NCBI RefSeq assembly: GCF_900129775.1
Contig: NZ_FQWV01000014.1
Span: forward strand, 1 to 32,595
Length of the DNA: 32,595 nucleotides
Source: Halobaculum gomorrense
GTDB taxonomy: Archaea > Halobacteriota > Halobacteria > Halobacteriales > Haloferacaceae
Direction: 5' to 3'
A program made the position numbers and the translations under genes. The notes beneath the pieces are model-generated. The model was given only the letters and a program-made list of their open reading frames with translations. It did not search any database and was not told the origin of the DNA. Of the stretch, positions 7,591-25,363 are shown in pieces (within the stretch, counting starts at the first letter, position 1; every line of letters begins with the position of its first letter).

Positions 7591-7860
7591 CTACACCAGC
7601 GCGTAGCGCCCGTCCAACTTCTCGACGTGTCCCGCCTCGCGCAGCGTCTTCAGGATGGAGTACAGGGAGATGCGCTTCATCGACAGCCCGTCGCACAGCG
7701 CGTCCTCGCAGACCGCGCCGTGGGTCGCCAGATACAGATACACCAGCTTCGCGCGGGGGGACGAAACCCCGTCCGGGAGCTGCGTCATCGGCGTCTCCGC
7801 GTCGACTTCGGCTGCCGCGGCGTCCGGGGTGTTGGCTGCGTCGGCGTGTGTAGTAACCAT
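7591..7860 (-). CDS. Small winged-helix (MarR/TrmB-like) transcriptional regulator
   Basis: This is an 89-residue predicted DNA-binding protein. After an acidic N-terminal ~27 residues it has a compact winged helix (LPDGVSSPRAKLVYLYLATHG, then LSMKRISLYSILKTLREAGHVEKLDGRYAL). The SLYSILKTLREAG segment is the likely recognition helix, and it resembles haloarchaeal MarR-like one-domain regulators. The ATG at 7860 was chosen over an upstream start at 7959 because a TATA-like GTTTTACA lies 30-35 nt before it and the extra N-terminus is not haloarchaeal in composition. It converges with the liv operon and lies downstream of sdhA on the same strand, 263 bp away. Its targets are unknown. Confidence 0.8.
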   Translation of the reverse strand: MVTTHADAANTPDAAAAEVDAETPMTQLPDGVSSPRAKLVYLYLATHGAVCEDALCDGLSMKRISLYSILKTLREAGHVEKLDGRYALV

Positions 7861-8123
7861 CGTGACTCCACCGTGCACTTCGACACCTGTAAAACTATGG
7901 TACGACAAACGTCGAATAACCGCGAGCGGTGGCCAGACCGTCGAATCCGACGGCCTCAAAGAAACAATCCGGTTACGAGTGAATCAATCGACCGATCCGG
8001 TCGGCAGGATTTTCGACTGCTGACGGCGAGCTCGGCGCACGGGTCGGCGCCGCGAGAACACAGACCGGGTCGGACTGGTATTCGCCGGCGACTTCGAATC
8101 TGAGCCGGATCGACGCTGTCGGG

Positions 8124-9977
8124 TCAGTACGAGCGGATCTTCGGCTCGTACTTCTTGTCCTCGCCCTCGAGGATGACCGGCTTGTACCACAGTTCCGGCG
8201 TACCGTCGTTCCACGACAGCATCGTGTGCTTGAGCCACTCGTCGTCCTTGCGCTCCTGGTGCTCCTTGCGCCAGTGGGCGCCGCGGAACTCGTCGCGCGC
8301 GAGCGCGCCGAGGGTGATCGCCTCCGCCAGGTCGAGGATGTTGCGCGTCTCCAGCGTCTGGATGAGGTCGGTGTTGAACGTGCGCGAGGGGTCCTTCACG
8401 AACACGTCCTGATATCGCTCGCGCGCCTCGGCGATGTCTTCGAGCGCCTGCTTGAGGCCCTCCTCCTCGCGGAAGACGTTCACGTACTGGGTCATCGACT
8501 CCTGCACGTCCGAGCGGATCTCCGCGTGCTGGACGCCGTCGTCTTTCTCCATGAGCGACTGGACGCGCTCGCGCTCGCGGGTGACCGCCCGCTCGACGAG
8601 GTCGTGACCGTCGCCCGAGCTGGTCTCGGCGGCGACGCCCCCGTCGGCGACCGCATCGCCCTCGCCGCCCGCGGGCTCGATCTCGCCGGGCTGGACTGGC
8701 GTGTCGACCTCGCCGAGCTCGTACTCGCCGCGCTGGCCGGTCTCGATCTCGGCGGTGCCGAGGTCCTTGCCAGCGGCGTGGGCACCCGCGCGCTTTCCGA
8801 AGACGATGAGCTCCGGCAGCGCGTTGCCGCCGAGGCGGTTCGAGCCATGGACGGACGCGCAGGCGCACTCGCCGGCCGCGTACAGTCCGCCGACGCACGT
8901 CTCGCCGTTCTCGTCGGTCTCGATGCCGCCCATCGCGTAGTGCTGTCCGGGCTTGACCGGCATCGGCTCCTCCAGCCCGTCAACGCCCTCGAAGTCCTTC
9001 GCGAGGTGGAGGATGTTCTCTAGGCGGTCGACGATCCGCTCCTCGCCGAGGTGGCGCATGTCGAGGTGGACGTACTCGTCGTCGATGCCGCGCCCTTCGT
9101 TCACCTCGCTCAGCTCCGCGCGGGCGACGACATCGCGCGAGGCCAGCTCGCCGTCGTTGCTGGCGTAGCCGTACTCGAACATGAAGCGCTCGCCCTCGTC
9201 GTTGTAGAGGATACCGCCCTCGCCGCGGACGCCCTCGGAGATGAGCACGCCCGTGCTGGGGAGGCTCGTCGGGTGGAATTGGATGAACTCCATGTCCTCG
9301 ATGGGGACGCCCGCGCGGTAGGCCATCGCCACCCCGTCGCCGGTGTTGGCGACGGCGTTGGTGGTGTGGTCGAACACCTGACCGAGCCCCCCGGTCGCGA
9401 GGATGACGCCCTCCGTCGCGCGGAAGCCCGACAGCTCGCCGCTTTGAATGTCGTAGGCGACGACGCCGTGGCAGGTGCGGTCCTCGGGGCGCTCCTCGTC
9501 GGTGACGGCCAGATCCGAGACGTACCACTCGTCGTAGACGGTGATGCCGCGCTTGACGAGCTGCTCGTACATTGTGTGGAGCAGCTGGTGGCCGGTTTCG
9601 GCGCCCGCGTACGTCGTCCGGGGGAACGAGAGGCCGCCGAACGGTCGCTGGGAGACGCGGCCGTCCTCCTCGCGGGAGAACGCCATGCCCCAGTGTTCGA
9701 GCTGGATGACCTCCTTCGGGGAGTCCGTACAGAGCGTCTCGATAGCAGGGGCGTCACCGAGGTAGTCAGACCCCTTCATGGTGTCGTAGGCGTGGTCCTC
9801 CCACGAGTCTCCCTCGCGAAGGGCCGCGTTGATGCCGCCCTCCGCGGCGCCGGTGTGGCTGCGCACCGGGTGGAGCTTCGAGACGATCGCCACGTCCGCG
9901 CCTTCCTCCTGGGCGGCGATGGCTGCGCGGAGTCCCGCGCCGCCGGCGCCGACCACGATGACGTCGTGTTCGTACAT
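8124..9977 (-). CDS. sdhA: Succinate dehydrogenase flavoprotein subunit SdhA
   Basis: This is the catalytic FAD subunit of respiratory complex II, oxidising succinate to fumarate on the cytoplasmic face of the membrane. The 617-residue protein has the dinucleotide motif VVGAGGAGLRAA near 8-19. It has the covalent flavin site RSHTGAAEGG with His41, the substrate-site blocks IQFHPTSLP and RGEGGILYN, and HYAMGGIETDENG. A ~50-residue acidic Gly/Glu-rich insertion precedes the C-terminal helical domain, common in halophilic versions. The ATG at 9977 is used; an upstream start at 10037 adds 20 residues with no homology. It is the last gene of sdhCDBA, 136 nt behind sdhB, a larger gap than elsewhere in the operon. 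Confidence 0.97.
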   Translation of the reverse strand: MYEHDVIVVGAGGAGLRAAIAAQEEGADVAIVSKLHPVRSHTGAAEGGINAALREGDSWEDHAYDTMKGSDYLGDAPAIETLCTDSPKEVIQLEHWGMAFSREEDGRVSQRPFGGLSFPRTTYAGAETGHQLLHTMYEQLVKRGITVYDEWYVSDLAVTDEERPEDRTCHGVVAYDIQSGELSGFRATEGVILATGGLGQVFDHTTNAVANTGDGVAMAYRAGVPIEDMEFIQFHPTSLPSTGVLISEGVRGEGGILYNDEGERFMFEYGYASNDGELASRDVVARAELSEVNEGRGIDDEYVHLDMRHLGEERIVDRLENILHLAKDFEGVDGLEEPMPVKPGQHYAMGGIETDENGETCVGGLYAAGECACASVHGSNRLGGNALPELIVFGKRAGAHAAGKDLGTAEIETGQRGEYELGEVDTPVQPGEIEPAGGEGDAVADGGVAAETSSGDGHDLVERAVTRERERVQSLMEKDDGVQHAEIRSDVQESMTQYVNVFREEEGLKQALEDIAEARERYQDVFVKDPSRTFNTDLIQTLETRNILDLAEAITLGALARDEFRGAHWRKEHQERKDDEWLKHTMLSWNDGTPELWYKPVILEGEDKKYEPKIRSY

Positions 9978-10113
9978 GTGTCGTGTGTTGTGTCCGTGTT
10001 GCTGCGTTCGATGGTCGTCCGTCGTCGCCGAACCCAACGGTTCGTCGTTGAATCCGCTTGGGGTTCTGGCTACTTCAATCGCGTGCCGGCTCGGGTGGCT
10101 GACCGGGGTGAGC

Positions 10114-11019
10114 CTACCAGAACTTCAGGTTGCTCTTGACTGCTTCCCGTTTGAGCTCCTGGATGTGCTCGGTCAGCGGGATGTCTTTCGGGCACACCTC
10201 GGTGCACGAGAACTGGGTCTGGCACCGCCAGACGCCGTTCTCCTGCTCGAGGATGTTGAGCCGGTGCTGCTTGCGCTCTGTGCCCTCGCGCTCGTCCATG
10301 GCGAAGCGGTACGCCTTGTTGATCGCGGCGGGACCGAGGTACTCGTTGTTGCCCGCGGCGATGTTGCACGAGGACATGCACGCACCGCACCAGATACAGC
10401 GCGTGGACATCTTCACCTTCTCGCGGTTCTCCCGCGTCTGGCGCTGCTCGTCGAGCTCGCCGTCGGGAAGCTCGTCGGCGTCGAAGTACGGCTCGACCGC
10501 CTCCATCTGATCGTAGAAGTGGTCCATGTCGACGACCAGATCCTTCTCGACCTCGGCGTGCGGGAGCGGCTCGACGCGAACCGGCTGGTCCAGGTCCGAC
10601 AGCTGCGTCTTGCAGCCGAGTCGCTGGCGGCCGTTGATGAACAGCGCGTCCGACCCACAGATCGCCTGTCGACAGGAGTGCCGGAAGGTGAGCGAGGAGT
10701 CGAACGTGTCCCGGGCGTAGATGAGCGCGTCGAGAACGGTCATCCCCTTCTCATAGGGGACGTGGAAGTCGTCGAAGCGCGGCTCCTGTTTCCCCTCGAC
10801 CTCGGGGTCGAAGCGGAACACCTTCAGGTGGACGGTGTCGTCGTCGCCCGTCGCGCGCTCTGCGGCCTCCTGGCGAGCGCGCTCCTCGCGGTCGGCGCGT
10901 GCCTCCGCCTTTTTGCGCATGCGCTCCTCCTGTGCGGGCGCCAGCGGCTCGCTGTGCTCGACCTCGGTCTCTGCCTCGGTGTCCGTCTCCGTCTCAGTCT
11001 CTGGAACGTGCGTGCTCAT
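10114..11019 (-). CDS. sdhB: Succinate dehydrogenase iron-sulfur subunit SdhB
   Basis: This is the electron-transfer subunit of complex II. The 301-residue protein has a ferredoxin domain with [2Fe-2S] ligands Cys116, Cys121, Asp124 and Cys136. The Asp in the third position is also seen in E. coli SdhB. The helical domain has CIWCGACMSSC (208-218) and CQTQFSCTEVCP (266-277) for the [4Fe-4S] and [3Fe-4S] centres. Residues 1-60 are a Glu/Thr- then Arg/Glu-rich tail absent from bacterial SdhB; part of it looks like a charged single helix. The ATG at 11019 lies 2 nt after the sdhD stop, and a longer open frame is only an sdhD shadow. Confidence 0.97.
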   Translation of the reverse strand: MSTHVPETETETDTEAETEVEHSEPLAPAQEERMRKKAEARADREERARQEAAERATGDDDTVHLKVFRFDPEVEGKQEPRFDDFHVPYEKGMTVLDALIYARDTFDSSLTFRHSCRQAICGSDALFINGRQRLGCKTQLSDLDQPVRVEPLPHAEVEKDLVVDMDHFYDQMEAVEPYFDADELPDGELDEQRQTRENREKVKMSTRCIWCGACMSSCNIAAGNNEYLGPAAINKAYRFAMDEREGTERKQHRLNILEQENGVWRCQTQFSCTEVCPKDIPLTEHIQELKREAVKSNLKFW

Positions 11020-11021
11020 TG

Positions 11022-11393
11022 TCAGAATGTGGGGAGGCCCGCCCAGGCGTTGGCGGTGCGGATCCCCTGCACGACGAGCACGATGCTCGCCGCGATCAGC
11101 GTGTACTTGACGACCTGCTTCTTCGTGCCGGTCAGTCCCTGGTTCTCGAGAGCGTTGTAGACGCCGTTGACGCCGTGGAACGTCGCGGTAATCAGGAACA
11201 GCACCATCAGCGAGTAGTAGGTGAGGTCCGTCATCCGCGCGCTCGACGCGAGGAACGACACCTCGTCTGCGTGATTGACGAAGTGGAGCAGGAAGAAGTG
11301 GAACGCGAGCACCACCACGAGGAACGCGGCGGTGATCCGCTGCCACAGCCACCGGCGTCCGCCCGGTTCGAACGAGGAGTAGCGCTCGGCCAT
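11022..11393 (-). CDS. sdhD: Succinate dehydrogenase membrane anchor subunit SdhD
   Basis: This is a 123-residue integral membrane anchor of complex II. Three hydrophobic segments are visible: ITAAFLVVVLAFHFFLLHFV, LTYYSLMVLFLITATFHGVNGVYNAL in part, and VKYTLIAASIVLVVQGI. Histidines within the first two are candidate haem or quinone-site residues. The start codon overlaps the sdhC stop by one base (TGATG), so an ORF extending upstream to 11774 is not the real gene. It is followed 2 nt later by sdhB. Assignment as SdhD rather than SdhC follows gene order and the HGVNGVYNALEN motif typical of the haloarchaeal hydrophobic membrane anchor. Confidence 0.92.
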   Translation of the reverse strand: MAERYSSFEPGGRRWLWQRITAAFLVVVLAFHFFLLHFVNHADEVSFLASSARMTDLTYYSLMVLFLITATFHGVNGVYNALENQGLTGTKKQVVKYTLIAASIVLVVQGIRTANAWAGLPTF

Positions 11394-11818
11394 CAGCCGA
11401 ACACCCCCGCGAGGAACGTCGGCACCGACGCCACGACGATAGCGCCCGTCAGGACGAGCGACGCGTAGAAGCTCTTGTCCTGGCTGTCGAGACCGATCCC
11501 CAAGTCGACGAGCAGCAGGCGACACCCGTTCAGGATGTGAAAGACAGCGACCGCGAGCAGCCCGACCTCGAGAATGCGAACGACCAGCAGACTCTCCAGC
11601 GCGGTGATGACGGTGGTGTACACGTCGTTTTCGGCCGCGATTGCCTGCGTCTGCCCGGCCGCGGAGATAGCGGTACTCAGCACGGCGATGTGGGTGAACA
11701 GGTACCCCACGAGCACCCAGCCCGTGAACTTGTGGAACACCCAGGCCCACATCCCCGCCGAGAACTCCCGCCACCGGCCGAAGTCCTCGACGAGGCCCCT
11801 GTCATACGACTGGCTCAT
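11393..11818 (-). CDS. sdhC: Succinate dehydrogenase cytochrome b556 subunit SdhC
   Basis: This is a 141-residue membrane subunit of complex II and the first gene of sdhCDBA. It contains three predicted membrane spans: [38 protein letters not shown], and [20 protein letters not shown]. The [17 protein letters not shown] segment resembles the conserved N-terminal quinone/haem region of cytochrome b556 subunits. His residues at the membrane faces ([12 protein letters not shown]) are candidate haem ligands. A strong TATA-like element lies about 29 nt upstream of the ATG and no Shine-Dalgarno is present, so the operon mRNA is probably leaderless. Confidence 0.93.
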
Positions 11819-11852: not shown

Positions 11853-11946
11853 TTACGTGACGCACTCGCACGCCCGCGAACGGATTCGGGGCGGGCGCAC
11901 CGCCGCCCCTGTGAGTCGCCCGGCCGAGCGATCGCGCGCAGGCCGA

Positions 11947-11955
11947 GAACTAATA
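11947..11955 (+). promoter_or_regulatory. TATA box of the divergent regulator gene
   Basis: GAACTAATACG on the plus strand is centred about 29 nt before the GTG at 11980. This spacing decides the start codon: the open frame continues upstream to 11857, but those residues would lie in promoter DNA. Confidence 0.5.
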
Positions 11956-11979
11956 CGCTCGCGGTCCGTGCCCGAGACC

Positions 11980-12882
11980 GTGCCTGACTCGTTCACGGAC
12001 GCGGCTGAGGACGCGTTTGCGTTCCTCGGCGACGGTCTCCGGTTGTCGATCCTCCGCGCACTCGCGTCGCGAGAGCCCCGCGCCGGGCCGCGCTCGGACG
12101 CGATAGCCTACAGCGACCTCCGGCGGGCGGTCGGCGAGCGCGACAGCGGCAAGTTCAGCTACCACCTCGACAAGCTGACCGGCCGGTTCGTCGAGAAGAC
12201 CGATGGCGGGTACCGGCTCCGGGAGCCCGGACGCGAGGCCGTTCGCCTGCTCGACCGCGGCGTCGTCGACGGACCGATCGACTTCCACGCCGCGCCCGTC
12301 GGCGCCCGCTGTCCGTTCTGCGACGGCAACGTTCGCGTGCGGTACAACGACCACCACCTGGTCAGCTATTGCACGGGCTGTGAGGGACTGTTCGACGCCG
12401 ACGAGGTTCCGGACGGAACGCTCACCGGAATCGTGCTCCCCCCGGCGACCATCGAAGGAACCGATCCGGAGTCGCTGTTCCGGCGCGCACACCGCGTGTT
12501 TCGGCGTCGACTCCGCCCCATGTTCGACGGCATCTGTCTGGAGTGTGGCGGCGATGTCGAGCGCTCGATGCGGTGCTGTCTGGACCACGGTGGCGCCCCC
12601 GGCACAACGTGCGACGCGTGCGGGACCGCCTCCCCCCGTCTCGCGGAACTCGTCTGCGGGACCTGCGGCCGCGGTCGCGTGAGCCACCCCCTGTTCGGCA
12701 ATCCCGGTGCCGACGATGTCGGCGCCGCAGCCGGCGAACCGTCCGAGCGAGACGCCTGGAACCGATTCGCGGCGTTTCTCACGTGGACGCCGGAGACCAC
12801 CGAGGCTGCCGCGGTAGCGTTCGAACGCCCCGACGGCGGTGAGCGCGTCCTCCTCGACGACGACCTCTGCGTGCTGGAGTAG
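11980..12882 (+). CDS. ArsR-like winged-helix regulator with zinc-ribbon domains
   Basis: This is a 300-residue predicted transcription factor. Residues ~10-85 form a winged helix ([16 protein letters not shown], then [24 protein letters not shown]), the ArsR-like arrangement common in haloarchaea. The remainder has Cys clusters suggesting metal-binding ribbons: CPFC/CTGC at 111-114 and 131-134, [15 protein letters not shown], and CDACG/CGTCG. The C-terminal part ends in an effector-like acidic domain. It resembles the large family of haloarchaeal wHTH proteins with uncharacterised C-terminal domains. It is divergent from sdhCDBA, with 161 bp between the start codons, so it may control that operon; this is inference only. 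Confidence 0.85.
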
Positions 12883-12946: not shown

Positions 12947-13969
12947 TCACCACCCGACCGAATTCGAGCTCTGGTCCATCTCGACGACCCGCCGCGTCCG
13001 GCGGTCCAGCTCGACGAGGTGGCACAGCGGATTTCCGGGGTACACCACCGGGTTTTCGAGGATCCCCACGAGGAGTCCGGTGAAGGGCGCCTCGACGAGG
13101 ACGTTGTCGTCTTTGAACGGGTTCGTGATCGTGCAGACCGTGTCACCCTCGTGGACGAGCGATCCCCGCTCGAAGTGCATGTCGACCATCCCTCCGACGT
13201 CGGCCCGCAGCCACGTCTTCTCGCGTTCCTCGGTGATCACGGTCCGCCAGCCGGGCCAGCGGACCTGCTCGGCCTCGAGCATCCCGTATTCGGCGAACAC
13301 CGAGCGAACGCCCGCGAGCGCCTCGTCGATGAGCGCCCGCTGGAAGCGGTGTGCCTCTCCCATCTCGACGGTGATCGCCGCCACGTCGTCGGTCACGGCT
13401 TCGGTCCGGAGCATCCCGGAGGCGCCCTGGCTGTCGATGATGACGTTTGTCCCGTACGCGCGGGCGAGTCGGGCCACGTCAGGATCGCCCATGTCGGCGC
13501 GAGCGTGGATCATGTTCGTCCGTCCCCGCGTCGACGTGTGAAAGTCCAGCCCCACGTCGCACGGCTCGATGAAGTTCGTGTAGATCCGTGCGGCCATCCG
13601 CTTCGCGCTCGTCGAGTCGGCCGACCCGGGGAACGAGCGGTTCAGGTCGCGGTCATACACCGGGAGGTACCGCTGCTGAGCGAGGAACCCGGGGACGTTC
13701 AACACGGGCAGGCAGATGAGCGTCCCGCACAGCTCCGAGAGATCCCACTCGTATGCGACCTCCCGGACCACCTCGATGCCGTTGAGCTCGTCGCCGTGGG
13801 CGGCCGCCGAGAGGAACGCCGTCGGTCCCGGGCGCTCGCCGTTGATGATCGTCACCGGGATCCTGACGGGGTCGCCGAGGTACGTCTCCGACACGACGAA
13901 CCGGAGATTCTGGCGCTCTCCCGGGTCGACCCGGCCTCCGTTGTACGTGAAGATGTCGGCGTCGGTCAT
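12947..13969 (-). CDS. Succinylglutamate desuccinylase/aspartoacylase (AstE/AspA) family zinc peptidase
   Basis: This is a 340-residue zinc-dependent amidohydrolase of the M14-like AstE/AspA family. Visible features are the zinc motif HGDE at 58-61, PVLNVPGF, the substrate-binding DLNRSFPG at 108-115, the third zinc ligand in DFHT (142-145), and a catalytic Glu candidate in ITVEMGEA. After ~residue 240 comes a barrel-like domain resembling biotinyl/lipoyl carriers (GGMVDMHFERGSLVHEGD, VEAPFTGLLVGI). The ATG at 13969 is supported by a TATA element 28 nt upstream; the longer frame to 14107 runs through a mobile-element remnant. It is divergent from a RimK-type ligase, so removal of amino acids from peptide conjugates is plausible. 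The true substrate is unknown. Confidence 0.9.
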   Translation of the reverse strand: MTDADIFTYNGGRVDPGERQNLRFVVSETYLGDPVRIPVTIINGERPGPTAFLSAAAHGDELNGIEVVREVAYEWDLSELCGTLICLPVLNVPGFLAQQRYLPVYDRDLNRSFPGSADSTSAKRMAARIYTNFIEPCDVGLDFHTSTRGRTNMIHARADMGDPDVARLARAYGTNVIIDSQGASGMLRTEAVTDDVAAITVEMGEAHRFQRALIDEALAGVRSVFAEYGMLEAEQVRWPGWRTVITEEREKTWLRADVGGMVDMHFERGSLVHEGDTVCTITNPFKDDNVLVEAPFTGLLVGILENPVVYPGNPLCHLVELDRRTRRVVEMDQSSNSVGW

Positions 13970-13992
13970 GATCGCCGGTGTGCGACCGAGCG

Positions 13993-14001
13993 TGATAAAG
14001 T
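13993..14001 (-). promoter_or_regulatory. TATA box of the AstE/AspA-like gene
   Basis: The minus strand reads CACTTTATC, centred 28 nt before the ATG at 13969. It fixes the start and indicates a leaderless transcript. Confidence 0.55.
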
Positions 14002-14070
14002 GCCCCACAGCCGCCGCGCGATGTCCGGCGACGGCTTGCCTGTGTCCCCAGTTCACAGAAATGCACGGCG

Positions 14071-14105
14071 GAAGCCCACGGCTTGAGCCGTGAGAGGAAT
14101 CCGAC
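14071..14105 (+). mobile_element. Degenerate right-end-like hairpin of an IS200/IS605-family element
   Basis: GAAGCC, then CACGGC-TTGA-GCCGTG (14077-14092, perfect six-base-pair stem), then AGAGGAATCC. This layout resembles the subterminal hairpin and tail at right ends of haloarchaeal IS1341-type (TnpB-only) elements. No transposase or tnpB remnant is adjacent: upstream is the promoter of the AstE-like gene. The family call is from memory of such ends, not from a search. Confidence 0.4.
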
Positions 14106-14234
14106 ACGACTGTCTATCCCACGACCCGAGTTCCCCGCACGACCCGAGTGCGACGACCACCGATCCCACGCCAGCGGTTCGCACCCCGTTTAGCCGACCG
14201 GGACACATTTGAACGTTCCGCCGAGTCGATCCGT

Positions 14235-15596
14235 ATGAGTGAGGAGCCGGTACGCGTCGGCGTACTATCGTTACACACGAGCAAGGAGACGAAGGCGATC
14301 TGCAACGCGGTCGAGGCGCTGGGGCACGACCCCGAGTGGCTCCGCCGAGAGAACGCCGCCGTCAGCATCGAGGACGGCGCCGTCGCGATCGAACCGGATG
14401 TCGACGTGGTCGCCAACCGGATGCTGCTGTCGAACATCGAACAGCCGGCCGAAGGCCTCGGCCTCGCGCACACGTTCGGCCGCGCGCGACCGATCCTCAA
14501 CGATCCCTCCGCGGTCCTGACGGCGATGCACAAGTTCGCCTCGGCCGTCGCGCTCGCGGAGGCGGACGTTCGCGTCCCGGACGCGCTGCTGGCGCTGTCG
14601 AACGACCGACTCAACCGCGGCCGCGAGCGCTTCGGCGAGGAGGGCGTGTACAAGACCGCCATCGGCACCCACGGCGGCGGCACCTGGAAGATCGACCTCG
14701 CGGACCCGGTGAACCCGATGGTCGGCAACCGACAGGCGTTCCTGCAGGACCTCATCGACCGCGACGACTCGCGCCACCACGACACCCGCGTGTACGTCGT
14801 CGGGGGAGAGGTCGTCGCGGCGATGAACCGCTACGCGCCGGAGGGCGACTGGCGAACCAACGTCGCGCTCGGCGGCGACGTGGAGGACGCGACCGAGATG
14901 CTCGACGACGAGGTCCGCGAGATGGCGCTGACCGCGACCAACACGATCGGCCTCGACTACGCCGGCGTCGACCTCGTCGAGGGGTACGACGGTTGGTACG
15001 TCCTGGAGGTGAACCCCACCGCGGGGTTCAAGGGCCTGTTCGCCGCCAGCGGGCGCTCGCCGGCGCCGCACATCGCGCGCCTGGCCATCGAGCGCGGCGG
15101 CGGCAGCGTCGACGACGATCGCGTGGAGGAGCTGTCGGCGGTGCTCGACGACTCGACGCCGTCGTGCATGCCGCCCCAGCGCCGCGTGAACGACGGCCAG
15201 ATCCCGATCATCGGCTACATCGAGGAGGTCCGGGTCGCCGGGACCCAGGGGTCGACCCAGGCGTTCGCCAAGTCCGACACCGGCGCGACGCGCTCGTCGA
15301 TCGACACGAAGCTCGCCGCCGAGATCGGCGCGGGACCGATCAAGAGCATGACCCGGATCAAGTCCGGGTCGGTGAAGTCGGGGAAGGCCCGGCCAGTCGT
15401 CGACCTCGTCGTCGGCATCGGCGGCGAGCAGCACACCGTCACCGCGAGCGTCGAGGACCGCTCGCACATGGAGTACCCCGTCCTCCTCGGCCGGGACATC
15501 CTCCAGCACTACCGCGTCGACGTGCAGCACCGCGCGGACGAGGGCCGCGACCCCGAGAGCGACGAGGAGGAGGAGGAAGAAGGCGCCGAGGAGTGA
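14235..15596 (+). CDS. rimK: RimK-type ATP-grasp ligase fused to a RimB-type aspartic protease domain
   Basis: This 453-residue protein has two domains. Residues ~5-290 are an ATP-grasp amino acid ligase of the RimK family, which forms amide bonds between a carboxylate and an amino acid with ATP. It shows YKTAIGTHGGGTWKIDL, DTRVYVVGGEVVAAMNR, EGDWRTNVALGG and the metal-binding VLEVNPTAGFKGLF (256-269). Residues ~320-430 are a retropepsin-like domain of the ATP-dependent zinc protease/RimB family, with active-site DTGA at 348-351 and VLLGRDIL at 416-423. The tail is poly-Glu rich. The ATG at 14235 follows two weak TATA candidates (around 14190 and 14208). It is divergent from the AstE/AspA-like peptidase. 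Substrate unknown. Confidence 0.92.
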   Translation: MSEEPVRVGVLSLHTSKETKAICNAVEALGHDPEWLRRENAAVSIEDGAVAIEPDVDVVANRMLLSNIEQPAEGLGLAHTFGRARPILNDPSAVLTAMHKFASAVALAEADVRVPDALLALSNDRLNRGRERFGEEGVYKTAIGTHGGGTWKIDLADPVNPMVGNRQAFLQDLIDRDDSRHHDTRVYVVGGEVVAAMNRYAPEGDWRTNVALGGDVEDATEMLDDEVREMALTATNTIGLDYAGVDLVEGYDGWYVLEVNPTAGFKGLFAASGRSPAPHIARLAIERGGGSVDDDRVEELSAVLDDSTPSCMPPQRRVNDGQIPIIGYIEEVRVAGTQGSTQAFAKSDTGATRSSIDTKLAAEIGAGPIKSMTRIKSGSVKSGKARPVVDLVVGIGGEQHTVTASVEDRSHMEYPVLLGRDILQHYRVDVQHRADEGRDPESDEEEEEEGAEE

Positions 15597-15712
15597 CCGC
15601 GAGAGCCCCGCTGGTCACCGCCGGTCGCGGACCGCCGAGATCGGCGCGGGACCGAGTCACAAGCGGGTGGCAGGTCCGGGGTGCTTTTGCCCCTCGGCTC
15701 CGAAGTGACGGT

Positions 15713-15910
15713 ATGGGCTTTGGGAGCTACGACGAATCCGAGCAGGAGCGTCAGCAGAACGACGGCGGCGACGCGGGAGACGGCTCGACCGTCGACGCCC
15801 ACGAGAACGAACACGAGGGCGAAGCGAGCTTCGAGGCCGGCGCCTCCACCGACGACCTGGTCTCGCAGCTCCAGACGATGAAAGACGACGGCGACGACGA
15901 CGAAGAGTAA
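15713..15910 (+). CDS. Small acidic protein, DUF5786 type
   Basis: This is a 65-residue, very acidic, mostly disordered-looking protein found widely in haloarchaea. It starts MGFGSYDESEQE, has an Asp/Gly/Glu-rich middle, a short likely helix (ASTDDLVSQLQTMK, about 44-57) and ends DDDEE. No function is known. The start is supported by a TATA-like GCTTTTGC about 27 nt upstream, giving a leaderless transcript of its own rather than simple read-through from the RimK gene 116 nt before it. It has the same orientation as rimK and might be a substrate or partner of the ligase, which is speculative. The DUF label is from memory of the family sequence. Confidence 0.8.
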   Translation: MGFGSYDESEQERQQNDGGDAGDGSTVDAHENEHEGEASFEAGASTDDLVSQLQTMKDDGDDDEE

Positions 15911-16844: not shown

Positions 16845-16880
16845 GCTAAAACCTCGCTCTCCAGGGCGGGGAGGATGTCA
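16845..16880 (+). mobile_element. Right-end (omega-RNA-like) remnant of an IS200/IS605-family element
   Basis: GGCTAAAA is followed by CCTCGCTC (16852-16859), loop TCCA, GGGCGGGG (16864-16871), then AGGATGTCA. The two arms pair over eight positions if two G-U wobbles are allowed. That fits an RNA hairpin better than a DNA palindrome. The layout and the AGGATGTCA tail match right ends of haloarchaeal TnpB-encoding IS1341-type elements, where the overlapping guide RNA ends. No tnpB is left. The tail supplies the stop codon of the adjacent glycosylase gene. Confidence 0.55.
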
Positions 16881-17537
16881 ACTCTCGCCCATGACCTCGT
16901 CGACGGTCGCGGCGATGTCCTCTTTCGCGCGCCAGAGGTACAGCGACGCGTAGCTGCGATGCGGCGCCCAGCGCTCTGCCTCCTCGACCATCTCCGCGCG
17001 GCTCATGTCGCGATCGTACAGCGCTTCCATTCCCTTTCTGACCCCCAGGTCGCCGACGGGGAACACGTCCGGGCGGCCGAGCGTGAACAGTAACTGCATA
17101 TTCGCAGTCCACTCGCCGACGCCGGTGATCGCGGTCAGCTCCTCGCGGACCTCGTCGTCGCTCATCGCGGCGAAGGCGTCGCTATCCCAGTCGTTGTCGG
17201 CGAACGCCTCCGCGACGTTGCGCACGTAGCGGGTCTTCTGTCGGGAGAGCCCGGCGTCCTTCAGCGTCGCGTCGTCGGCCGCGAGCAGCCCCGCCGGCGT
17301 CACCTCGACGGCGTCGAACAGCCGCTCGCGCGTGGCCTCCGCCGACGCCATCGACACCTGCTGTCGGAGGATCGACACGATGAGTCGCTCGAACGGGTCG
17401 TCCGCGGGGTCGACCGTGAGCGGTCCGTGTCGGTCGATCACCGGCCCGAGCAGGTCGTCGGCGCGGAGCGCCGAGAGCGCCGCACGGTCGGTCGAGTCAA
17501 GCTCCTCGAAGGCGTCGGCGTCCGCGTCGACTGGCAT
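16878..17537 (-). CDS. DNA-3-methyladenine glycosylase II family (AlkA-like, HhH-GPD)
   Basis: This is a 219-residue base-excision repair enzyme that removes alkylated bases from DNA. The HhH-GPD fold is visible: RLIVSILRQQVSMASAEAT near 51-70, the helix-hairpin-helix ITGVGEWTA at 137-145, and the catalytic Asp163 in VFPVGDLGVRKGM. There is no [4Fe-4S] Cys cluster, as expected for AlkA rather than endonuclease III. It lacks the E. coli N-terminal AlkA domain, as in other archaeal versions. The ATG at 17537 has a T-rich TATA-like GTTTTTTG about 26 nt upstream. Its TGA lies inside the tail of the IS200/IS605-like remnant, so the native 3' end may have been altered slightly. Confidence 0.92.
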   Translation of the reverse strand: MPVDADADAFEELDSTDRAALSALRADDLLGPVIDRHGPLTVDPADDPFERLIVSILRQQVSMASAEATRERLFDAVEVTPAGLLAADDATLKDAGLSRQKTRYVRNVAEAFADNDWDSDAFAAMSDDEVREELTAITGVGEWTANMQLLFTLGRPDVFPVGDLGVRKGMEALYDRDMSRAEMVEEAERWAPHRSYASLYLWRAKEDIAATVDEVMGES

Positions 17538-17639
17538 ACGCCGTGATGGGACCGCAGACAAAAAACGGCTTTCGGGGGTCGACCGGTGCGGCGGGGACCG
17601 GTCGCGGACCCGCGGGCAACTCCGGAAAACTGGTGTCGT

Positions 17640-17669
17640 GTTTCCGTCGAGACGGAGGGAAACGTTGAA
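17640..17669 (+). promoter_or_regulatory. Inverted repeat next to a weak TATA upstream of the HAD-ECH gene
   Basis: GTTTCCGTC-GA-GACGGAGGGAAAC (interrupted symmetry, core CCGTC-GA-GACGG) covers 17640-17663. It abuts the TATA-like CGTTGAAT centred about 28 nt before the ATG at 17695. Position and symmetry suggest an operator; the binding protein is unknown. Confidence 0.4.
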
Positions 17670-17694
17670 TCGGGGCGACTCCGAGGCGACGCAC

Positions 17695-19674
17695 ATGGAC
17701 GTTGATGACGTAGAGACGGTCGCGGTGCTGGGCGCCGGAAACATGGGTCACGGCATCGCGGAGGTCGCCGCGCTCGCCGGGTTCGACGTGACCCTTCGAG
17801 ATATCAACGAAGAGTTCGTGCAGAACGGCTACAACCAGATCGAGTGGTCGCTCGACAAGCTCGCGGAGAAGGACCAAATCTCCGAGGAGGACGCCGACGC
17901 CGCGCTCGACCGGGTCACGCCGGTCGTCCCCGTCGCGGACGCCGTCGCCGAGGCCGACCTCGTGATCGAGGCGGTGCCCGAGAAGATGGACATCAAGAAG
18001 GACGTGTACGCGGAGGTCGAGGAGCACGCGCCCGACCGCGCCGTCTTCGCGTCGAACACGTCGAGCCTCTCGATCACGGAGCTGTCGGAGGTGACCGACC
18101 GCGAGGAGCGCTTCTGCGGGATGCACTTCTTCAACCCGCCGGTGCGGATGCAACTCGTCGAGGTCATCTCGGGCGCGCACACGTCCGCGGGGACGATGGA
18201 CCTCGTCGAGGCCGTCGCCGAGCGGATGGGCAAGACCCCGGTCCGCGTCCGAAAGGACTCGCCCGGCTTCATCGTCAACCGCGTGCTCGTCCCGCTGATG
18301 AACGAGGCGGCGTGGCTCGTCCACGAGGGCGAGGCCACCGTCGAGTCGGTCGACTCCACGACCAAGTACGAGATGGGGCTGCCGATGGGGAGCTTCGAGT
18401 TGGCCGACCAGGTCGGCATCGACGTGGGCGTCCACGTACTCGAGTACATGCACGAGGTGCTCGGGGACGCATACGAGCCGTGTCCGCTGCTGACCGAGAA
18501 GGTCGAGGACGAGCACCTCGGCAAGAAGACCGGGAAGGGATTCTACGACTACGAGGACGGCCCCGGCGCCGAGGTTCCCTCCGACGAGGCGGACGAGGGC
18601 GTCAAGCACGCGCTCCTCGCGGTGATGGCCAACGAGGTCGCGGGCCTGATCGGCAACGACGTGGCCGACGCTGGCGACATCGACCAGGCGGTGAAGCTGG
18701 GCGCCGGCTTCCCGGACGGCCCCGCGAAGATGGCCGACGCGGTCGGCCTCGACGCGCTGCTTTCGACGCTCGACGAGCGCCGCGAGGAGACGGGCGCCGA
18801 GCGCTACGAGGCGGTCGACTACCTCCGCGAGCTGGTCGAGGAGGGGCGGGGGTTCTACGCCGACACCGACGGCGAAGACGACGACGGCGTCGACTTCGAG
18901 ACCATCCGGATCGAGCGCGAGGGCCGCGTCGGCCACATCGTCCTCGACCGACCCCACCGGATGAACACCATCTCCGAGGAGCTGCTGGACGAGCTCGGCG
19001 TCGCCATCGAGGAACTGGAGGCCGATGACGGCGTGCGCGCGGTGCTGGTCACCGGCGAGGGCGAGCGCGCCTTCTCTGCCGGCGCCGACGTGCAGAGCAT
19101 GGCCGCCGGCGGCGGCGACCCGCTGCACGCCGTCGAGCTCTCCCGGAAGGGCCAGTCGACGTTCGGGAAGTTCGAGTCCTCCGACCTCCCGGTCGTCGCC
19201 GGGATCGACGGCTACTGCCTCGGCGGCGGCATGGAGTTCGCCACCTGCGCGGACCTGCGCGTCGCCTCCGAGCGCTCGGAGCTGGGCCAGCCCGAGCACA
19301 ACCTCGGCCTGCTCCCCGGCTGGGGCGGCACCCAGCGCCTGCGCCACATCGTCGGCGAGGGGCGCGCCAAGGAGATCATCTTCACCGCCGAGCGCTACGA
19401 CGCCGAGACGATGGAACGCTACGGCTTCGTCAACGAGGTCGTCGGCAACGACGAGCTGCTGGACCACGCGATGGACATCGCGCAGGACCTGGCCGCCGGC
19501 CCGCCCGTCGCCCAGCGCTACACGAAGCGCGCGATGCACGCCGGTCGCGACGACACCGATGCCGGGCTGGAGATCGAGGCGCAGGCGTTCGGCCAGCTGA
19601 TGAACACCGAGGACCTCATGGAGGGCGTGATGGCGTTCATGTCCGACGAAGAGCCGGCGTTCGAGGGAAAGTGA
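17695..19674 (+). CDS. Bifunctional 3-hydroxyacyl-CoA dehydrogenase/enoyl-CoA hydratase
   Basis: This 659-residue fusion catalyses two steps of fatty-acid beta-oxidation (or crotonyl-CoA metabolism). The N-terminal NAD-dependent dehydrogenase has the Rossmann motif GAGNMGHG at 13-20, catalytic His144 in GMHFFNPPVRMQ, and the C-terminal dimerisation block KTGKGFYDY. The enoyl-CoA hydratase domain starts near residue 400. It has the oxyanion segments AFSAGADVQSM and GYCLGGGMEFATCADL, and both catalytic glutamates (GGGME and LGQPEHNLGLLPGWGG). The order HAD then ECH is the reverse of bacterial FadB but known in archaea. The ATG at 17695 fits a leaderless start; the frame upstream runs through the glycosylase promoter. 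Confidence 0.95.
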   Translation: MDVDDVETVAVLGAGNMGHGIAEVAALAGFDVTLRDINEEFVQNGYNQIEWSLDKLAEKDQISEEDADAALDRVTPVVPVADAVAEADLVIEAVPEKMDIKKDVYAEVEEHAPDRAVFASNTSSLSITELSEVTDREERFCGMHFFNPPVRMQLVEVISGAHTSAGTMDLVEAVAERMGKTPVRVRKDSPGFIVNRVLVPLMNEAAWLVHEGEATVESVDSTTKYEMGLPMGSFELADQVGIDVGVHVLEYMHEVLGDAYEPCPLLTEKVEDEHLGKKTGKGFYDYEDGPGAEVPSDEADEGVKHALLAVMANEVAGLIGNDVADAGDIDQAVKLGAGFPDGPAKMADAVGLDALLSTLDERREETGAERYEAVDYLRELVEEGRGFYADTDGEDDDGVDFETIRIEREGRVGHIVLDRPHRMNTISEELLDELGVAIEELEADDGVRAVLVTGEGERAFSAGADVQSMAAGGGDPLHAVELSRKGQSTFGKFESSDLPVVAGIDGYCLGGGMEFATCADLRVASERSELGQPEHNLGLLPGWGGTQRLRHIVGEGRAKEIIFTAERYDAETMERYGFVNEVVGNDELLDHAMDIAQDLAAGPPVAQRYTKRAMHAGRDDTDAGLEIEAQAFGQLMNTEDLMEGVMAFMSDEEPAFEGK

Positions 19675-24595: not shown

Positions 24596-25363
24596 TTACT
24601 CCTCGGTTTCGTCGTCCGCGTCCGCGTCTCCGTCCGTGTCGTCCTCGACGCTCAGGTCGAGGCCCTCGACGAGGTCGGCGATCTCATCGGCGGTGAAGGC
24701 GGCGTAGCCGTCAGCCGAGACCGTCGCCAGCGACACGTCGTTCGGGGTGAGCTCGTCGTTGATCTCGAACAGCGCGCGCAGCGCGAGGCCGATGCCGTCG
24801 TCGAGCGTCAGCTCCTCGGTCCACTCGTCCTCGAGCAGCTCTTGGATCTCCTGGCGGGAGCCGCCGATCGCGGTCGCCTTCCACTCGTGGGGCGTCCCCG
24901 AGGGGTCGGCGCCGAACAGGCGCGGCTCGCCGTCCTCGAAGCCGCCGATGAGGAGCGCGGCGCCGTACGGGCGCGTGCCGCCGCGCTGGGTGTTCTCCTG
25001 GATGTGGTCGGTGATGTACTTCGTCAGCGTCTCGACACCGACCGGCTCCTTGTAGCGCAGGCGGTTCCCCTGGGCCATCCGGCGGGCGTAGTCGATGAGC
25101 TGGCGCGCGTCGGCGACGTGGCCGGCGCTGGCGGTGCCGACGTGGTCGTCGAGCTTGTGGAGCTTCTCGATGGACTCCGACTCCATCAGGCTCGAGGACG
25201 CCTGCGCCTGCGCCGCGAGCACGACGCCCTCGCTCGTGCGGACGCCGACGGAGGGCGCGCCGCGGGAGACGGCCTCCCGGGCGTACTCAACCTGGTAGAT
25301 CCGACCGTCGGGCGAGAACAGCGACGTGCCGCGGTCGTACGCCTGCTGGTCGTTCCCCCTCAT
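24596..25363 (-). CDS. psmA: 20S proteasome alpha subunit
   Basis: This 255-residue structural alpha subunit forms the outer rings and gate of the archaeal 20S core particle. The alpha signature YDRGTSLFSPDGRIYQVEYAREA occupies residues 9-31 in part. KLHKLDDHVGTASAGHVADAR and GGTRPYGAALLIGG follow, and the catalytic N-terminal Thr of beta subunits is absent, as expected. The C-terminus is a long acidic tail (DDTDGDADADDETEE). Haloarchaea often have two alpha paralogues, PsmA and PsmC. The TSLFSPDGRIYQ and GGTRPYGA wording reminds me of the PsmC type, so this may be alpha2; no other psm gene is in the window. The ATG at 25363 follows a 14-codon leader ORF by 3 nt. Confidence 0.95.
   Translation of the reverse strand: MRGNDQQAYDRGTSLFSPDGRIYQVEYAREAVSRGAPSVGVRTSEGVVLAAQAQASSSLMESESIEKLHKLDDHVGTASAGHVADARQLIDYARRMAQGNRLRYKEPVGVETLTKYITDHIQENTQRGGTRPYGAALLIGGFEDGEPRLFGADPSGTPHEWKATAIGGSRQEIQELLEDEWTEELTLDDGIGLALRALFEINDELTPNDVSLATVSADGYAAFTADEIADLVEGLDLSVEDDTDGDADADDETEE

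Follow-up and report, generated by a model that had tools for sequence, protein, structure and literature searches.

A RimK-RimB fusion with a conserved Glu-Glu terminus and a linked AstE-like hydrolase in Halobacteria: a candidate polyglutamate module

Organization of the locus

The window analysed here is a 32,595-nucleotide stretch of the Halobaculum gomorrense genome (RefSeq assembly GCF_900129775.1, contig NZ_FQWV01000014.1, positions 1 to 32,595), and it contains a divergent pair of genes coding for an AstE/AspA-family zinc amidohydrolase and for a RimK-type ligase fused to a RimB-type protease. The amidohydrolase gene (12947..13969, minus strand; PF24827, 148 bits) codes for 340 residues and probably starts with the ATG at 13969; its open reading frame (ORF) extends to 14107 via an upstream GTG. 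A spacer of 265 bp (13970..14234) separates it from the fusion gene (14235..15596, plus strand), which has a probable ATG start at 14235, codes for 453 residues followed by a stop, and matches TIGR00768, PF08443 and PF05618. Downstream lies a gene for a small acidic DUF5786 protein of 65 residues ending DDDEE (15713..15910, plus strand, probable ATG start at 15713; PF19099, 76 bits), judged to be outside the system. The three genes and their arrangement agree with the original prediction, made from the letters of the window, and curated families are matched above cut-off; the fusion also has ligase and protease in a single chain as claimed there, with the RimK domain first and the RimB domain second.

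The AstE-like protein has the HxxE...H zinc site and catalytic Glu of AstE/AspA zinc amidohydrolases. Its zinc ligands H58, E61 and H144 (within HGDE and DFH) and the catalytic E202 are kept in essentially all of 126 relatives, and the closest solved structures are the DoeB/AspA-like entries 3na6 and 6twl (DoeB-like deacetylases).

Ligase and protease domains of the fusion

Residues 3-290 (14241..15104, plus strand) form a RimK/LysX/ArgX-type ATP-grasp ligase domain, assigned by structure match and residue conservation. The match to the RimK subfamily model TIGR00768 (145.8 bits) exceeds its cut-off of 143.4, and the ATP-grasp fold is accompanied by the catalytic Lys, Asp and Glu-x-Asn of the RimK family; K100, K140, R207, D246, E258 and N260 are each kept in 153-154 of 154 fusion proteins. 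An AlphaFold2 model of the whole fusion, built with 50 haloarchaeal sequences, has a mean pLDDT (predicted local distance difference test) of 87.6, and the last 15 residues are disordered. When residues 6-290 of the model are compared with solved structures, the VIA Z scores are 29.6 for ArgX (3vpb), 29.3 for LysX, 29.2 for RimK (7qys) and 28.9 for RimK with RpsF (5zk6). The same genome has a stand-alone RimK-like gene (G000:C5:337887-338453, L187) that reaches no NCBIfam cut-off; the part scanned scores 110 bits with the RimK subfamily model.

The C-terminal domain (residues ~325-433; 15207..15533, plus strand) matches the RimB-like 'Zn_protease' family PF05618 with 41.9 bits (cut-off 27). 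The Pfam name 'zinc protease' is historical, and the domain is a retropepsin-type aspartic protease with the motif DTGA, thus carrying the retropepsin fold and D-T/S-G motif that are hallmarks of RimB and RloA. Modelled alone it has a pLDDT of 88.1 and resembles Lpg0085 (2pma; VIA Z 13.9) and RloA2 (9g59; 13.1) more than HIV-type proteases (~10); a sequence profile of the domain retrieves 9g59 (E 6.7e-12), 2pma and 9g58. A RimB-family domain is also present in Haloferax volcanii.

In RloA of Pseudomonas, D48 is catalytic and K46, R114 and R137, which are common to RimB, touch polyglutamate; R114A and R137A reduce cleavage the most, and the substrate must have more than six Glu residues (PMC12239564). 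These four residues can be mapped onto the fusion using the motifs K-x-D-T-G, R-P-V and D-R-S and their equal spacing, with the two Arg residues 23 residues apart in both proteins. K46 and D48 correspond to K346 and D348 in K346-S-D348-T-G-A351 (15270..15287), R114 to R386 (15390..15392) and R137 to R409 (15459..15461). Among the 154 fusion proteins K346 is conserved in 147, R386 in 147, R409 in 150 and D348 in 152. Six paralogs with a broken D-T/S-G motif also lack K346 and R386, and three of the six, forming one clade, lack R409. This retention of all four residues, and the accompanying losses in the broken paralogs, supports a putative polyglutamate protease in the intact copies. The broken-motif paralogs (L218, L219, L220, L100, L213 and L214) have IDTAA, RAEP, RADP or RANP, and the Glu-Glu end is gone in four of them.

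The C-terminal Glu-Glu

The fusion ends in a disordered acidic tail (residues 439-453; 15549..15593, plus strand; pLDDT <50) with the sequence ...SDEEEEEEGAEE. It contains a run of six Glu (15564-15581) that is not conserved among relatives, and finishes with a Glu-Glu (15588..15593) that is. Of 154 distinct complete fusion proteins, 142 have Glu at the last position, 130 at -2 and 57 at -3, and 125 end in Glu-Glu. Shuffling within tails predicts 46 with a terminal Glu and 13 with Glu-Glu, and the observed Glu-Glu count was reached in 0 of 5000 shuffles; after removal of near-duplicate tails, 104 are observed and 10 expected.

The tails themselves are variable and unalignable, with 2 to 29 residues after the last protease strand in the first sequence set. 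Nevertheless, in 67 non-overlapping sister pairs with differing tail lengths, Glu is shared at -1 in 62 and at -2 in 51, whereas at each of positions -3 to -8 the two members agree in just 14 to 25 pairs. A Glu-Glu end is also seen in diverged paralogs whose tails are just 6-8 residues long (e.g. ...DISRTVEE). By heuristic gene calls, 15% of 1074 haloarchaeal ORF ends have a terminal Glu and 2% Glu-Glu (41% and 10% for 59 Glu-rich ends). None of eight neighbouring gene families is similarly constrained, with at most one Glu-Glu end per family. The protease-dead paralogs keep Glu-Glu in just two of six cases (p 0.012), and a tie between its loss and protease death is only suggestive because the six constitute two clades.

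The proposal that the ligase's own poly-Glu end may serve as a site is supported in one part, in that the extreme end of the protein is constrained, and not in the other: runs of at least five Glu occur in 21 of 115 fusion proteins and of at least six in nine. Such runs are too rare to be a conserved self-cleavage site, and RloA needs more than six.

Distribution and linkage of the fusion and AstE

The survey covered 145 Halobacteria genomes, of which 131 have a close match to the fusion (E<1e-100) and 132 a close match to AstE. Both genes are found in 131 genomes, neither in 13 and AstE alone in one (Fisher p 1.2e-17, phylogeny ignored). The sole AstE-only genome (G109) has a fusion gene with an in-frame internal deletion beside an intact AstE (L076, ~7759-8027, minus strand); read by eye, about 69 N-terminal residues are joined directly to the tail and the Glu-Glu end is retained. 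The genomes without the pair are spread over nine genera, and in four of these nine other species hold both genes.

Of 134 ortholog loci, 115 have the two genes in divergent orientation, and at 92 of these the gap is below 400 bp. They are thus mostly adjacent and a single deletion could take out both, but at least eight genomes (G029, G045, G063, G074, G092, G123, G130 and G135) have both genes unlinked. The H. gomorrense genome contains two more divergent AstE/fusion pairs (G000:C10:348201-350699 and G000:C13:24944-27440; L047 and L048), with 71% identity to the window copies for AstE and ~50% for the fusion. Together these observations support a conserved functional link between the fusion and the AstE-like hydrolase across Halobacteria.

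The third gene behaves differently, and the expected co-occurrence of all three extends to AstE and the fusion only. Every one of the 145 genomes has DUF5786, even the 13 that lack both AstE and the fusion. Its position next to the fusion is limited to Halobaculum and a single related genus, both among the fusion loci retrieved and in a complete coordinate list for 39 genomes. It is a neighbour and not a partner, because it is universal whether AstE and the fusion are there or not and lies next to the fusion in just two genera. As an acceptor it was also rejected in view of its own terminus, which is Glu-Glu in three of 35 sequences.

Full-length fusions were not seen outside Halobacteria: among the matches listed for 148 genomes of the phylum, other classes match the RimK part only, and the one other-class match that reaches profile position 364 does so through three stop codons. 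The RimK-RimB fusion thus looks like a haloarchaeal invention, judged by these sequence matches. A Vibrio plasmid match was rejected as the same fusion; it consists of two separate adjoining genes, rimK then rimB, in the same order.

Several diverged fusion paralogs are on plasmids. Four of these (L174, L176, L178 and L179) are near several universal stress protein genes, usually without AstE. On a Haladaptatus pallidirubidus plasmid (L172, 5974-10493) AstE and a glutamate-cysteine-ligase-family gene come after a fusion paralog, which may hint at a small-peptide product.

A proposed glutamate cycle and its alternatives

The RimK domain, the retropepsin domain and the AstE-like enzyme could together constitute a haloarchaeal polyglutamate module whose most likely acceptor is the fusion's own Glu-Glu, and we give this reading roughly an even chance of being correct. 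With ATP, the RimK domain would add Glu (favoured as donor over other amino acids) one by one onto a C-terminal Glu, and the retropepsin domain would cut the polyglutamate chain as a dimer. Released acyl-Glu or oligo-Glu would then be hydrolysed, probably by the AstE-like zinc enzyme. The fusion would prime itself at its conserved C-terminal Glu-Glu; this encoded stub would be too short for cutting, with chains extending from it and the protease trimming back to it.

Among the readings considered, a polyglutamate ligase and protease with its own tail as the likely acceptor is best supported because RimK and LysX/ArgX act on the final Glu of acceptors that end in this residue. For LysX and ArgX the residue loaded is the last Glu of LysW; S6, the RimK acceptor in bacteria, ends with DNADE in SBW25 and GDSEE in E. 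coli. A ligase whose terminus is held at Glu-Glu and whose fused protease is predicted to act only on longer runs fits such a self-priming cycle, and the fusion may both assemble and shorten glutamate chains that it carries. The fuller version, in which AstE consumes the oligomers to complete an anabolic-catabolic glutamate cycle across Halobacteria, is more tentative and less likely than not.

Several points weigh against this interpretation. The usual chemistry of the AstE family is deacylation of small N-acyl amino acids and not peptide trimming. Most diverged fusion paralogs other than the C10 and C13 copies have no adjoining AstE, so the hydrolase need not accompany every copy. The known RimK target bS6 is bacterial, and a natural acceptor in haloarchaea must therefore differ. 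Some fusion proteins end with LE, EG, EL or QEQ, two of the six protease-dead paralogs keep Glu-Glu, and the Glu-Glu might serve in docking or as a signal for degradation and not as an acceptor. Support in archaea comes from sequences and models.

The main rival is a module acting in trans, which glutamylates some other Glu-ending protein or makes free poly-Glu, with the fusion's own Glu-Glu docked as an inhibitory pseudo-substrate. The same evidence for the ligase and protease domains applies to it. Bacterial RimK acts on S6 in trans and, with RimB, makes free poly-alpha-Glu in Pseudomonas; RimB stimulates RimK toward this free product and cuts runs of at least six Glu. With about 2% of haloarchaeal ORFs ending in Glu-Glu there are many candidate acceptors. 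However, none co-occurs with the pair, the proposed DUF5786 fails, and action in trans alone leaves the constrained end of the fusion unexplained when 0 of 8 neighbouring families show such constraint. We consider this rival rather unlikely.

In another scheme the tail is a tethered LysW-like carrier, with an amino acid other than Glu loaded on the C-terminal Glu of the fusion, modified there and released by AstE. ArgX and LysX, which load such an end, are structurally as near to the ligase domain as RimK is, AstE relatives such as DoeB deacylate amino acids, and the Haladaptatus plasmid copy adjoins both AstE and a glutamate-cysteine-ligase-family gene. The sequence models nevertheless favour RimK, with 100.8 bits for LysX_arch compared to 145.8 for the RimK subfamily; the genome already codes for a distinct ArgX-like protein, and the poly-Glu-binding residues kept in the fused protease would be needless. 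A carrier role therefore appears improbable.

Capping of a cofactor or metabolite with Glu, as by CofF or MptN, with the protease and AstE processing the product, is more doubtful again. The ligase domain does score with the equivalog models for MptN (111.9 bits) and the F420 alpha-glutamate ligase CofF (46.7 bits), but far under their respective cut-offs of 350 and 300, and known cofactor capping gives a fused poly-Glu protease no role.

Finally, Pup-like tagging, in which the ligase would attach or extend DUF5786 to mark proteins for the proteasome, is suggested by the small size, acidity and position of DUF5786 beside the fusion in Halobaculum, and is very improbable given the presence of DUF5786 in every genome without the pair, its adjacency in only two genera, the lack of a Pup-type GG-Q/E end (GG near the C-terminus in 0 of 35 sequences) and the failure to find the Pup ligase PafA in the H. 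gomorrense genome with a search whose positive control matched in Corynebacterium.

Relationship to known systems

The nearest published entity to the haloarchaeal fusion is the RimBK hybrid of Proteobacteria, described with the RimABK system in a survey of bacteria only (Little et al. 2025, PMC11957791). The hybrid likewise combines a RimK ligase with a RimB retropepsin in a single chain, and its system makes and cuts poly-Glu. It differs in domain order, with RimB at the N-terminus of the hybrid and RimK first in the haloarchaeal protein, which is moreover archaeal, has an AstE partner and carries the conserved Glu-Glu C-terminus that is the new element here. Pseudomonas RloA/RloC (PMC12239564) shares the retropepsin fold, the poly-Glu-binding Lys and Arg residues and an ATP-grasp partner, but RloA is secreted and separate whereas the haloarchaeal protease domain is fused, and the fusion model opens directly with the ligase domain and has no N-terminal extension. 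The RLAN profile PF14401 has no match in the H. gomorrense genome, although no positive control matched either.

LysX and ArgX, used with LysW, have the same ATP-grasp fold as the fusion (Z ~29) and an acceptor that is the C-terminal Glu of an acidic protein. LysW is, however, a stand-alone zinc-ribbon protein and no protease is involved, and Halobacteria already hold argX and argW. Iyer et al. reportedly made family-level predictions of peptide tagging in 2009 from RimK, RimB and AstE neighbourhoods, linking amidoligases with peptidases. A literature search of incomplete coverage found no relevant paper on RimK or the fusion protein in haloarchaea.

If the proposed module is correct, RimK/RimB polyglutamylation, so far known from the control of ribosomes in bacteria, would be ancestral to an entire class of archaea. 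That class lacks the known RimK target, and the acceptor would be built into the enzyme. The conserved Glu-Glu end offers a way to test this.

Other genes in the window

The proteasome alpha gene, which the original prediction had noted in the same window, is indeed present (24596-25363, minus strand), but is 9 kb from the fusion locus and gives no sign of a link; its presence looks coincidental. The locus is flanked on one side by the succinate dehydrogenase (sdh) operon (8124-11818, minus strand) and on the opposite side by DNA glycosylase and hydroxyacyl-CoA dehydrogenase genes (16878-19674). These genes stay beside the locus across much of Halobacteria in a pattern that looks like housekeeping gene order passed down by descent, and they were dropped as a clue to function. 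Between the sdh genes and AstE is a gene for a putative regulator with DUF7347 and DUF7351 (11857-12882, plus strand).

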